A stretch of DNA of 64,000 nt from Deltaproteobacteria bacterium. GTDB taxonomy: Bacteria; Desulfobacterota; Desulfobaccia; Desulfobaccales; Desulfobaccaceae. The stretch is taken from positions 1 through 64,000 of the forward strand of contig JAFDGA010000001.1 in assembly GCA_019309545.1 (NCBI GenBank), read 5' to 3'. Of the stretch, positions 709 through 41,737 are shown one piece after another (positions within the stretch are counted from its first letter, which is position 1; each line of letters begins with the position of its first letter). Below the pieces are notes generated by a model. The model saw nothing but the letters and a program-made list of their open reading frames with translations, made no database searches and was not told the origin of the DNA. The position numbers were made by a program, and so were the translations under genes.

Positions 709-743
709 TAAAAAGTGTGAAAAATCAAGCAGGAGGAAACCAG

Positions 744-1187
744 TTGTCCAGAATTATTAAGCTTTTGTTAGCGTTAATGGTGATGGTTGGTTGCCTTGCT
801 TATGGCCCTAGGATCCAAAATTGCCTGGCCGGCCCTCCGGCGCACCCCCAAAAGGGACCGCAATGGCACCCGGTAAAGGGGGTGCATGGGGTGGAATATG
901 CTTCTGATTCGGCAGATTTGCCGGGCGATTTATTTCGCTATGGGAAAAAATACTATTATTATCATCAGGGTAACTGGTACCATGGGGAAACCTATCGGGG
1001 GCCCTGGAAAAGAGTGCAAAGGATTCCTCCCATTTTTCGCGAGATCGGCCCGGAATATTACAAGACCCCGCCAGGTTGGTCTAAGGGGAAGAAAACCGGC
1101 TGGGGCGGAGCCCCCATGCCTCCAGGCCAGATGAAAAAACAGCGGGTTACCCCGTGGCCATGGCGAATAGATAAGAAGCATAAATAA
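744..1187 (+). CDS. Small secreted aromatic-rich protein
   Basis: I place the start at TTG 744 because AGGAGGA (731-737) lies 6 nt upstream; a GTG at 717 in the same frame has no ribosome site. The 147-aa product opens with a signal peptide (MSRIIKLLLALMVMVGCLAY) and a likely cleavage region near NCLAG. The mature part is rich in Tyr, Trp, Pro, Gly and Lys. A Tyr/His cluster (YGKKYYYYHQGNWYHG) is followed by RGPW, PPIF and PPGW motifs and a basic tail. Small exported proteins of this look are common in Desulfobacterota, but I do not recognise the family. It is convergent, only 8 bp away, with another small secreted Tyr/Arg-rich protein. An envelope location is inferred from the signal peptide. 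Confidence 0.65.
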   Translation: MSRIIKLLLALMVMVGCLAYGPRIQNCLAGPPAHPQKGPQWHPVKGVHGVEYASDSADLPGDLFRYGKKYYYYHQGNWYHGETYRGPWKRVQRIPPIFREIGPEYYKTPPGWSKGKKTGWGGAPMPPGQMKKQRVTPWPWRIDKKHK

Positions 1188-38631: not shown

Positions 38632-39346
38632 CCTGTCAAGCGCAGGAACCAAGGGCTGTCCAGTTCGATAAGGACAGATTGCACCAGGATCAGGTCCCGC
38701 ACCAGGTCCGCCAGGAAACCTTAATTTCGCGCTCTTCCAGGCGTTGTTGCAGGTCCACCTCCAGGCGCAAGGCCAGGAAGCTGGCCACAATGTGACCGAT
38801 GCAGGTATCATCCCGCTGATGATAGATAGGGCGGACTTCCAGGGTGGATTTCTGCTCCCGGAAAGTGCGCTCCACTCGCCACAGGCTCTTATAAGTCTTA
38901 GCCACCTCCTCGGCGGGCAGGTTAGTGTTGGTAGTCAGGACGAACTTGCCGTCCAGGCGGGCAGGCCGCTTCATGGCCTCGTCGTCAATGGCCACACTCC
39001 CCTTGGCCACCTTGAGAAAGCGGGCATAGCCCCGGTTGCCGATAACCGCTTTGGCACCCTATTTTTCCCACGGGCGACCAAAGACCAAGGTCGGTCCCCC
39101 CGGTTTCGCCGTCCGGGCGGCAAGCCCCGCGTTGCGCACCGCTTCCACCACCCGCAGGTTCTCGCTGAATTTAGCCAGACCGTGCAGCAGGCCGTCCAGC
39201 GCCCCCGAGGCGATCAGCCGGTCGCGGCGGCCCAGGCTGGCAAGCACCTGTTGGCGAACCCGGCCCCCTTCCCGGTAAGAGCGGGCAACCGGCAGATATT
39301 CATAGGCAGTGCCATTCCGGACACTACGCTTGCTCCGCACGAACAT
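38632..39346 (-). pseudogene. Decayed IS1634-type transposase
   Basis: An N-terminal fragment (39346 to about 39060; MFVRSKRSVRNGTAYEYLP through VFGRPWEK) ends in an in-frame TAG. It is followed directly, in another frame, by C-terminal transposase sequence (GAKAVIGNRGYARFLKV, KFVLTTNTNLPAEEVA, WRVERTFREQKSTLEVRPIYHQRD, about 39055-38705). A second frame change leads to RDLILVQSVLIELD and a stop near 38632. Full-length IS1634-family transposases are around 500-550 aa, so roughly 250 central residues, including catalytic Asp residues, are lost. It lies just after dnaE and can only be a relic. Confidence 0.8.
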
Positions 39347-39488: not shown

Positions 39489-40247
39489 TCAGGAATCGCC
39501 GTGGGTGAGGCGGAAGGCAATGGGGACAATAATGGTGAGCCGGGTTTTATGGAGTGTCGGCGGAAAGGGCGGGAACGGCGCGGCGGCCAGGACGCATTCC
39601 CGGGCCTGGCGGTCCAGCAGGTGGTGGCCGGATGAGCTTACTATCCGTACACCACCCATCAGGGTGCCACTGGGGGCCAGGGTGAAGGAGACCCGGACTA
39701 CACCTTCGTGACCCCGCTGGCGGGACAGCGCGGGGTATTTTTTATATTGTTGGAGCCGGGCCCGAATCCGACCCAGGTAGCGGCGTTCAGCATTGATCAC
39801 CCCCCGAGAAGGTCCCTGGCCGGGCAGACCTGGGGGACCATGCGACCCCCGTCCTCGACCGCCGGGAATTCCGCGGCCGGCAGTTGGAGCCAGGCCTGAC
39901 CCTGGGGCTGAGCCAGACTGCGACAGGATAGGGGACTTAGATTTAGGAAGCGGACGGACCCGGGGTTTAGGTGGAGCAGGTGAGAGGATTTTTCTGATTT
40001 TACGGGGTTGGGGGTGAAGCGCCTTCTTGACTTGGGGCCGGGTTTGGGGTGGGGGGGTTGCGTCTGGAGCAGGGGCGGCTCCTCCCAACTTATTAATAGA
40101 ACTCCGAGAGGCAGTCAGCTTCAGCCGGTGGACCCTGACCGGAGGGACCGGTTTTTTCAGAGAACATACCCCGGTCTCTAGCAAAGCGATATGGAGGCCC
40201 AAGGAAAGAGCCAGAAACCAATAGATCGGATTATGGTAACGACTCAC
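39489..40247 (-). CDS. tonB: TonB-family energy transducer
   Basis: The 252-aa protein has one N-terminal membrane helix (IYWFLALSLGLHIALLETG), a long Pro/Lys/Arg-rich periplasm-spanning region (about residues 35-150), and a C-terminal TonB domain (about 165-250) with YPALSRQRGHEGVVRVSFTL, a GVRIVSSSG strand and APFPPFPP. TonB passes proton-motive energy from ExbB/ExbD to outer-membrane receptors. Its ATG overlaps the exbD stop by 4 bp (ATGA). It is the last gene of the cobalamin-riboswitch operon, so B12 uptake is the likely use. No receptor gene is in the window. Confidence 0.9.
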   Translation of the reverse strand: MSRYHNPIYWFLALSLGLHIALLETGVCSLKKPVPPVRVHRLKLTASRSSINKLGGAAPAPDATPPPQTRPQVKKALHPQPRKIRKILSPAPPKPRVRPLPKSKSPILSQSGSAPGSGLAPTAGRGIPGGRGRGSHGPPGLPGQGPSRGVINAERRYLGRIRARLQQYKKYPALSRQRGHEGVVRVSFTLAPSGTLMGGVRIVSSSGHHLLDRQARECVLAAAPFPPFPPTLHKTRLTIIVPIAFRLTHGDS

Positions 40248-40648
40248 GGGACTTTCTCCCGGTCGTGGACCAGGCTAATGTCCTCAACGCCCAGTTCCTG
40301 GGCCAGGTCCAACACTTTAACAAAGTTGTGGTATTCGCTTCTGGCATCACCCCGGAAGGTGAGGCGTTTTTCTTTAAGTGCGGCCAGCCGGGTTTGGAGA
40401 CGGTCCCTTAAATGGTCCTCTGGCACCGGCTCCTGATTGACATAAAAATTGCCCTGGCGATCGACCGACACCACCAGTTCCTGGGGCGGTGGATATTGTT
40501 GATTACGGGCCTGAGGCAGGGTTAGCTTCAGGGCCGGCATGACAAAGGTGGAACACAGCAGAAAGAAAATCAGCAACAAAAACACCACGTCCACCAGTGG
40601 GGCGATGTCAAGGCTGGGTAGACTGCGGCGGCGACGCAAAAAGGTCAT
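40244..40648 (-). CDS. exbD: Biopolymer transport protein ExbD
   Basis: The 134-aa protein has the ExbD layout: a short cytoplasmic N-terminus, a single membrane helix with the essential Asp (LDIAPLVDVVFLLLIFFLLC), and a periplasmic domain with LTLPQA, VVSVDRQGNFYVN and VPEDHLRDRL. It works with ExbB in the proton-driven motor that energises TonB. It overlaps exbB at its start and tonB at its end, both by ATGA, so the three are translationally coupled. Confidence 0.93.
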   Translation of the reverse strand: MTFLRRRRSLPSLDIAPLVDVVFLLLIFFLLCSTFVMPALKLTLPQARNQQYPPPQELVVSVDRQGNFYVNQEPVPEDHLRDRLQTRLAALKEKRLTFRGDARSEYHNFVKVLDLAQELGVEDISLVHDREKVP

Positions 40649-41316
40649 GGCGATTTTTTCGGCGACAGGGGGAGGTACCCGGCCTTCCCGGAGTTTGGTT
40701 GGAGGCGTTCTCCTGACATCATCAAGGCTTCTTTGAGCCTTACCACCACGAATTCCATGTGATTCGCCATGCGTCCGGCCAGACTGTCAAAGTAATGGTA
40801 GGCCGCCAGGGTAGGCAGCGCCACCAGCAGGCCGAAGGCGGTGGTCAACAGGGCCTCCCAGATGCCGCCGGCCAGGGCGGTGACGTCGGCCTGGGTACCC
40901 AGTGCCTGCAATTGCCGGAAGGCCTGGATCATGCCGGTGACGGTGCCGAAGAGCCCCAACAGCGGGGTCAAATAACCAATGGTAGCCAGCCCCCGCAGGA
41001 AGCGCTCCACCCGTTCCATCTCTTCAGAGCCGCGTAATTTCACGATCTCCGATTGTAGTTCTGGTGGTTGCTGATAGGTCTCCAAGTAAGTCTGGGCCAT
41101 GACCGCCAGAGGATCATGCCGTTGGCGGCAGAAATTCAGGGCCGAAGCCGGATTCTGGTCCTGCAACTGGGCCAGCAATTGGGCCATAAAACTCTTATAG
41201 TTATTCGAATAGCGCAAGAAGAAATAGGCCCGTTCTAGAATGATGGCCAAGGCCAGGATGGAACAGGCCAGAATCGGCCACATGATCGGACCGCCCTTGT
41301 CAAATAACGAGATCAA
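40645..41316 (-). CDS. exbB: Biopolymer transport protein ExbB/TolQ family
   Basis: The 223-aa protein starts at TTG 41316 with GAGG 8 nt upstream. Three membrane helices are visible: IMWPILACSILALAIILERA at the N-terminus, then LATIGYLTPLLGLFGTVTGM and ALLTTAFGLLVALPTLAAY flanking a short loop. The pore-lining Thr/Pro pattern of the MotA/TolQ/ExbB family is present. It forms the stator channel with ExbD. It is the first gene downstream of a cobalamin riboswitch and terminator. Confidence 0.93.
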   Translation of the reverse strand: MISLFDKGGPIMWPILACSILALAIILERAYFFLRYSNNYKSFMAQLLAQLQDQNPASALNFCRQRHDPLAVMAQTYLETYQQPPELQSEIVKLRGSEEMERVERFLRGLATIGYLTPLLGLFGTVTGMIQAFRQLQALGTQADVTALAGGIWEALLTTAFGLLVALPTLAAYHYFDSLAGRMANHMEFVVVRLKEALMMSGERLQPNSGKAGYLPLSPKKSP

Positions 41317-41364
41317 TCTTTCTGCCTCGCCTCCCCAAGTCGTGGGAGATAATTCTCTATATTA

Positions 41365-41396
41365 AAAAAAATCCTTGAGTCTGCGACTCAAGGATT
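41365..41396 (-). terminator. Riboswitch-controlled attenuator terminator before exbB
   Basis: Perfect 11-bp arms AATCCTTGAGT (41370-41380) and ACTCAAGGATT (41386-41396) with a 5-nt loop are followed on the minus strand by a run of Ts. The hairpin sits between the cobalamin aptamer and exbB, the place expected for the expression platform of a transcription-terminating riboswitch. Confidence 0.88.
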
Positions 41397-41486
41397 GCAC
41401 CCAGCTTGCTTGATCCTTGGAGCTCCTAAGTTTACCATCCTCGGAGCCTGGTTTGCGCCTCATCCAACGTGAGGGCTGAAACCGAA

Positions 41487-41653
41487 TTTACAGGCAGGTC
41501 TTCTGACTCCCGGATCACCCTAATCCCTGCGCCTTCCCCTGGCCCTATCCAGACAAGAGTGGCGGTTGAGCAGGTTTCGTTCCCGGTTACAGCGGCGGGA
41601 CCATGCCGGACTCGCACCGGCTTCCCTATTAAGCCCTTAATGGCACCTGTAAA
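41487..41653 (-). ncRNA. Cobalamin (B12) riboswitch aptamer
   Basis: Read on the minus strand, the closing helix TTTACAGG/CCTGTAAA pairs 41653-41646 with 41494-41487. Inside are the family landmarks: GGTGCC near the 5' end, TAATAGGGAAGCCGGTGCGA, a GCCGCTGTAACCGGG segment, and the B12 box GAGTCAGAAGACCTGCC near the 3' end. A TTGACA promoter lies just upstream and an intrinsic terminator downstream, before exbB. Ligand binding should favour termination and so lower ExbB-ExbD-TonB synthesis when B12 is plentiful. Confidence 0.93.
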
Positions 41654-41664
41654 ACTATATTTTA

Positions 41665-41694
41665 AATATCGACAAGATCCGGGCTGCTTGTCAA
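41665..41694 (-). promoter_or_regulatory. Predicted promoter of the riboswitch-exbB-exbD-tonB operon
   Basis: On the minus strand a perfect TTGACA (41694-41689) and GATATT (41670-41665) are 18 bp apart. The predicted start, near 41658, is just 5 nt before the first helix of the riboswitch. Confidence 0.65.
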
Positions 41695-41737
41695 GCAAAA
41701 AAACTCTGAGATAGTTATCCGGCCGGCTTCCGAATTC

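Follow-up and report, generated by a model that had tools for sequence, protein, structure and literature searches.

A conserved cobalamin riboswitch in front of exbB-exbD-tonB as a probable OFF-switch of a TonB energy transducer in the Desulfobaccaceae

In delta-proteobacteria related to the organism treated here, loci for the synthesis and transport of cobalamin are under the control of B12-elements (PMC545781). In the excerpted text of that survey no exbB-exbD-tonB target is found, and the exbB, exbD and tonB cluster of Desulfovibrio is given as FUR-regulated (PMC545781). In Caldithrix abyssi, which lacks de novo B12 synthesis according to the excerpts of its description, a cobalamin riboswitch is located upstream of btuB-btuF and TonB-ExbB-ExbD is named as part of the system; unlike in the locus described below, the riboswitch precedes btuB-btuF and not the motor genes (PMC5317091). 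A particular TonB is also needed for full cobalamin uptake in Anabaena (BtuB2/TonB3), where btuB is riboswitch-controlled, but a riboswitch on the TonB gene itself is not described in the excerpted article (PMC10878165). With respect to the leader, the metE riboswitch of P. megaterium is a comparable case: as far as the excerpts of PMC10653944 go, it comprises an aptamer, a P13-like hairpin and an antiterminator and terminator sharing one strand, with predicted repression by corrinoid.

The window analysed here is a stretch of 64,000 nucleotides at the start of contig JAFDGA010000001.1 from a bacterium of the family Desulfobaccaceae. It contains a B12 riboswitch directly before exbB-exbD-tonB, an arrangement which is not described in the excerpts of the literature that was searched; a prior mention in older surveys is possible. 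The system is real and conserved; as a control of B12 uptake it is largely of the ordinary sort, and what sets it apart is mainly its target, the motor.

The leader and its expression platform

All elements of the leader are located on the minus strand. The cobalamin aptamer (41476–41665), already proposed in the preliminary description, was confirmed at full length by a covariance-model search with RF00174: the match at 41665–41476 reaches 117.2 bits (E 9.7e-29; gathering cut-off 31.5 bits) and covers the model positions 1–189 completely. The sigma-70-type promoter candidate (41665–41694), likewise proposed before, was recovered in a hexamer scan and consists of TTGACA at 41694, an 18-nt spacer and GATATT ending at 41665, which together agree with the consensus at 10 of 12 positions. 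The two hexamers recur upstream of the exbB switch in both genus mates, at an unchanged distance. The intrinsic terminator (41364–41396; terminator scan) is composed of a stem with 12 perfect pairs and a 3-nt GCA loop (41396–41370), followed by a T-run; the perfect stem and the T-run are as first described, the length being 12 and not 11 bp. In generic scans both promoter-like sites (two found, 0.8 expected) and terminator-like sites (one found, 1.5 expected in shuffles) occur at chance level, and the case for the two elements therefore rests on their conservation. A separate promoter between terminator and exbB, named beforehand as evidence against the switch, was searched for by scanning this interval on the same strand, and no promoter-like site was found. 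An 88-aa open reading frame over the aptamer (41432–41698) was not taken for a coding gene, its DNA being that of the riboswitch.

Downstream of the aptamer, folding yields a P13-like hairpin (CCTCA-CGTTGGA-TGAGG, 41458–41474), which is a candidate partner of the aptamer loop L5. It is followed by an antiterminator, whose 5' arm CAAGGAT (41413–41419; folding and pair counts) and 3' arm ATCCTTG (41389–41395; folding) enclose the loop CAAGCAAGCTGGGTGCA (41396–41412), conserved in the platform alignment; the 3' arm lies inside the 5' arm of the terminator. For the CTGGGT of this loop a partner in P13 or in the aptamer was sought by eye, and no conserved one was found. In P. megaterium metE the 5' arm of the antiterminator is the 3' side of P13 (PMC10653944, excerpted text), whereas the window has a separate conserved arm with a CnGGGU loop, placed after P13 and, in this type of platform, often after a second hairpin.

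The seven genomes of the family contain 45 matches to RF00174, and the same expression platform is located behind 31 of them, consisting of RAGGA as a short arm, a conserved loop that includes CnGGGT, and TCCTY, which doubles as the terminator's 5' arm. All 31 platforms have an antiterminator helix of 7–11 bp (7 bp in the window). Shuffling of the upstream arm in each sequence gave at least 7 bp in 10 % and at least 8 bp in 2.7 % of the cases compared with 31/31 and 25/31 observed. At four variable helix positions 121 of 124 pairs are standard, whereas 5000 row permutations average 107 and never exceed 117; in some rows of the MAFFT alignment the antiterminator arm is displaced by one column, and pairs were therefore counted at a fixed register. 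Both statistics are to be read with the caveat that the regular expression used to select the platforms predetermines some of the helix core, and that the rows are related. The changes are compensatory, with UU..AA alternating with CC..GG and A-U with G-C. The leader is thus a terminator/antiterminator switch with mutually exclusive hairpins.

A search model built from the platform alone, with the terminator as its only structure (R1), served as an independent check and has matches in 41 of 148 Desulfobacterota genomes. Among the 30 loci listed for it, the own one left aside, an RF00174 match is present directly upstream at 27 of 29; the two loci without aptamer (L210 and L213) are contig ends with less than 100 bases of upstream DNA. 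A weak R1 match without aptamer (34 bits) exists also on contig C8 of the own genome (L241). The CnGGGT antiterminator loop is conserved in cobalamin riboswitch platforms across the Desulfobacterota (41412–41396 in the window and 30 others).

The exbB-exbD-tonB genes and their riboswitches in other lineages

Three adjacent genes follow on the minus strand: an exbB-like gene (40645–41316, TTG start, 223 aa; PF01618), an exbD-like gene (40244–40648, 134 aa; PF02472) and a tonB-like gene (39489–40247, GTG start, 252 aa; PF03544). Their MotA_ExbB, ExbD and TonB_C domains assign them at the superfamily level to an ExbB/TolQ-ExbD/TolR-TonB energy transducer. The third protein is above the cut-off of the TonB C-terminal model TIGR01352 (63.2 against 27.1 bits). 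The first two miss the equivalog cut-offs of TIGR02797 (exbB, 58.3 vs 206.2) and TIGR02803 (ExbD_1, 51.2 vs 152.95) and are therefore not filed as these equivalogs. Of the ATGA overlaps claimed for all three genes only that of exbB/exbD could be maintained, the exbD/tonB overlap being GTGA. The latter is common to the window and both relatives; the former is absent from the two relatives, where exbB and exbD are 75 and about 230 nt apart. Transposase remnants are located directly downstream of tonB (38690–39346, minus strand; DDE_Tnp_1 match in 38690–39010).

The riboswitch precedes exbB-exbD-tonB in all three genomes of the Desulfobacca-like genus (that of the window, G005 and G006). Among named organisms the nearest relatives are Desulfobacca MAGs, whose ExbB orthologs, 83–86 % identical, are encoded behind the same switch; among nine loci of distant ExbB relatives in named genomes the riboswitch was present only at the two from Desulfobacca. 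A wider ExbB search covered 297 Desulfobacterota genomes and listed more than 150 matches, and the upstream DNA of 88 ExbB genes was examined (30 loci including the own one and 58 stretches of about 1 kb) with an nhmmer aptamer profile and, for 38 of the 88, with Rfam. Within the reach of about 1 kb, a cobalamin riboswitch directly upstream of the ExbB gene was found twice in these 88 regions, in the own genome and in G283. In the latter, which belongs to another family, the order is riboswitch, exbB, exbD, tonB, btuF-like and btuC-like gene. Riboswitches further upstream escaped this survey, and two such cases were found by the platform search only: in G139 the riboswitch is followed by the gene of a 666-aa DUF6802 protein, exbB, an exbD-like gene and tonB, and in G021 by genes for DUF3450, two ExbB-domain proteins, ExbD and TonB. 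The riboswitch lies downstream of exbB-exbD-tonB in G213 and G077. In the other genus of the family (G001) a switch precedes an ExbB-like gene that belongs to another set and is accompanied by a CobN-like gene, as judged from the translations. A B12-controlled TonB motor is therefore recurrent but rare, and several lineages have acquired or retained one.

At L145 (4587–9006) and L146 (5715–1059) a cobalamin riboswitch stands after exbB-exbD-tonB and before the genes of two large secreted-looking proteins, one of which is by resemblance perhaps BtuG-like. Another cobalamin riboswitch of a genus mate (L083, about 725–858, plus strand) is located amid genes resembling a CODH/acetyl-CoA synthase cluster.

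Corrinoid economy of the genome and an orphan riboswitch

A BtuB-like receptor with the same switch was sought elsewhere, as suggested in the preliminary description, and was found in the same genome behind the same aptamer and platform; its best NCBIfam model is TonB-B12 with 233 bits, below the cut-off of 600 bits. The initial view that the switch controls the motor rather than a receptor is thus correct for the motor, but the receptor carries its own copy, and motor and receptor would consequently be co-regulated. Elsewhere the same platform is found on btuB, cbiK and cbiM (cbi names read from translations). A BtuFCD-like ABC set on contig C7 has no switch, so that not every uptake gene is covered.

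CbiC, present in six of the seven family genomes, is absent from the own one. The latter has only four TP_methylases, two of them exported-looking, and lacks a counterpart to the GATase_3 of the relatives' cbi cluster; two other strong GATase_3 genes (CobQ/CbiA-type) are present, which indicates that corrinoid metabolism is not fully lost. The several B12-dependent enzymes postulated for this cell are borne out by 11 matches to B12-binding domains, ten of which are over the cut-off. From the missing corrin-ring genes together with the B12-binding proteins it follows that the cell probably depends on imported corrinoids. The genome is rated 99 % complete, but a complete cbi cluster could still be located on a single missing contig.

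A conserved 86-aa protein without Pfam or NCBIfam match is encoded between riboswitch and btuB (L005, 8932–9192, minus strand), and in relatives next to CbiK-like genes. On contig C25 (L108, 5213–9468, plus strand) a TonB-dependent receptor with a frame broken by one TGA is flanked by two exported-looking TP_methylases, which are related to uroporphyrinogen/precorrin methyltransferases. The own genome also has a weak, shortened cobalamin riboswitch (39.6 bits; L007, 964–840, minus strand) before the gene of a 161-aa secreted-looking protein.

An orphan cobalamin riboswitch with terminator is located on contig C4 (L006, 9293–9745, plus strand) and occurs in all seven genomes of the family (also G001–G006). 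Downstream of it lie a C/U-rich stretch, CTCCTTAT-like and potentially complementary to ribosome-binding sites, and a second hairpin, whose T-run is clear in four of the seven genomes, all of the family's other genus. No long open frame common to all seven genomes was found in the read-through product. An HU-like gene is situated further downstream in several genomes. B12-switched regulatory RNAs are known from Listeria and Enterococcus. The orphan riboswitch may yield a B12-controlled small RNA. It is conceivable, though rather doubtful, that corrinoid scarcity in this family drives the btuB receptor, its own TonB motor and a trans-acting small RNA by means of one re-used switch, the small RNA then silencing messages for which the cell has no use when B12 is lacking. 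Such a regulatory RNA alongside a B12-dosed TonB motor in Desulfobacterota is not described in the excerpts of the literature searched.

Task of the motor and direction of control

The leader is probably an OFF-switch acting on transcription, and the TonB-ExbB-ExbD energy transducer under its control would serve the import of corrinoids. At low corrinoid levels CAAGGAU (41419–41413) would pair with AUCCUUG (41395–41389) to form the antiterminator, which would occupy the 5' arm of the terminator and allow RNA polymerase to continue into exbB-exbD-tonB. With enough corrinoid, presumably the ligand, the aptamer would close and hold the P13 hairpin, the terminator would form and transcription would end at about 41364. 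Termination would accordingly depend on B12, with P13 as the putative coupling between aptamer and antiterminator. As btuB has a copy of the switch, receptor and motor would rise together in corrinoid shortage, and BtuB would be the preferred partner of this motor.

The strongest competing explanation accepts a real, repressing switch and regards this TonB as a general supply for several receptors, so that B12 shortage would raise total TonB. One TonB protein often serves many receptors, and the own genome has five TonB-dependent receptors, three ExbB-family proteins and only two TonB_C proteins, so that the four other receptors could use this TonB as well. The second ExbB-ExbD-TonB set, on contig C19, however, adjoins another receptor and has no cobalamin riboswitch; the lineage of G283 has the motor together with btuF-btuC under the switch; and a general motor shut down by plentiful B12 would leave other imports without energy, except where the second set stands in. 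A general supply is for these reasons possible but distinctly less probable than a motor for corrinoid import. The motor shares its control with the B12 receptor while a second TonB set without switch exists, and the earlier idea of a TonB system dedicated to corrinoid uptake is largely supported by the switch on btuB, the switch-free C19 set, the lack of corrin-ring genes beside about ten B12-binding proteins, and btuF-btuC in G283; the motor may serve corrinoids exclusively.

The direction of control, repression by corrinoid, is deduced from the layout and from the comparison with the tested switches of P. megaterium and A. halodurans (PMC10653944, excerpted text). The excerpts of the same source include one activating corrinoid riboswitch, that of A. 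halodurans cobT, and by analogy corrinoid binding could favour read-through here; in cobT, however, the role of antiterminator falls to P13, part of whose sequence also belongs to the terminator (PMC10653944). In the window P13 lies clear of the terminator arms and the antiterminator is formed by a helix of its own, and the occurrence of the platform on the uptake and synthesis genes btuB, cbiK and cbiM fits repression, which makes activation very improbable. Equally improbable is a Tol-type envelope set (TolQ-TolR-TolA-like) instead of a nutrient-uptake motor: among NCBIfam models the first protein scores best against tolQ (101.9 bits) and the second against tolR (67.6 bits), neither score reaching the cut-off, but the TonB C-terminal model and PF03544 both recognise the third protein, a separate Tol-like cluster exists on contig C14, where, as judged from the translations, genes for TolA-, TolB- and Pal-like proteins come after one of the ExbB/TolQ family, and B12 control would make no sense for Tol-Pal.

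The platform is conserved enough across the phylum to act as a search model for B12-controlled genes, and such a search could reach targets without an obvious link to B12. For the bacterium itself, the OFF-switch before exbB-exbD-tonB means that regulatory sequence alone names a likely substrate for one of its two TonB motors, and the locus lends itself to a simple test of whether individual substrates have TonB motors assigned to them.
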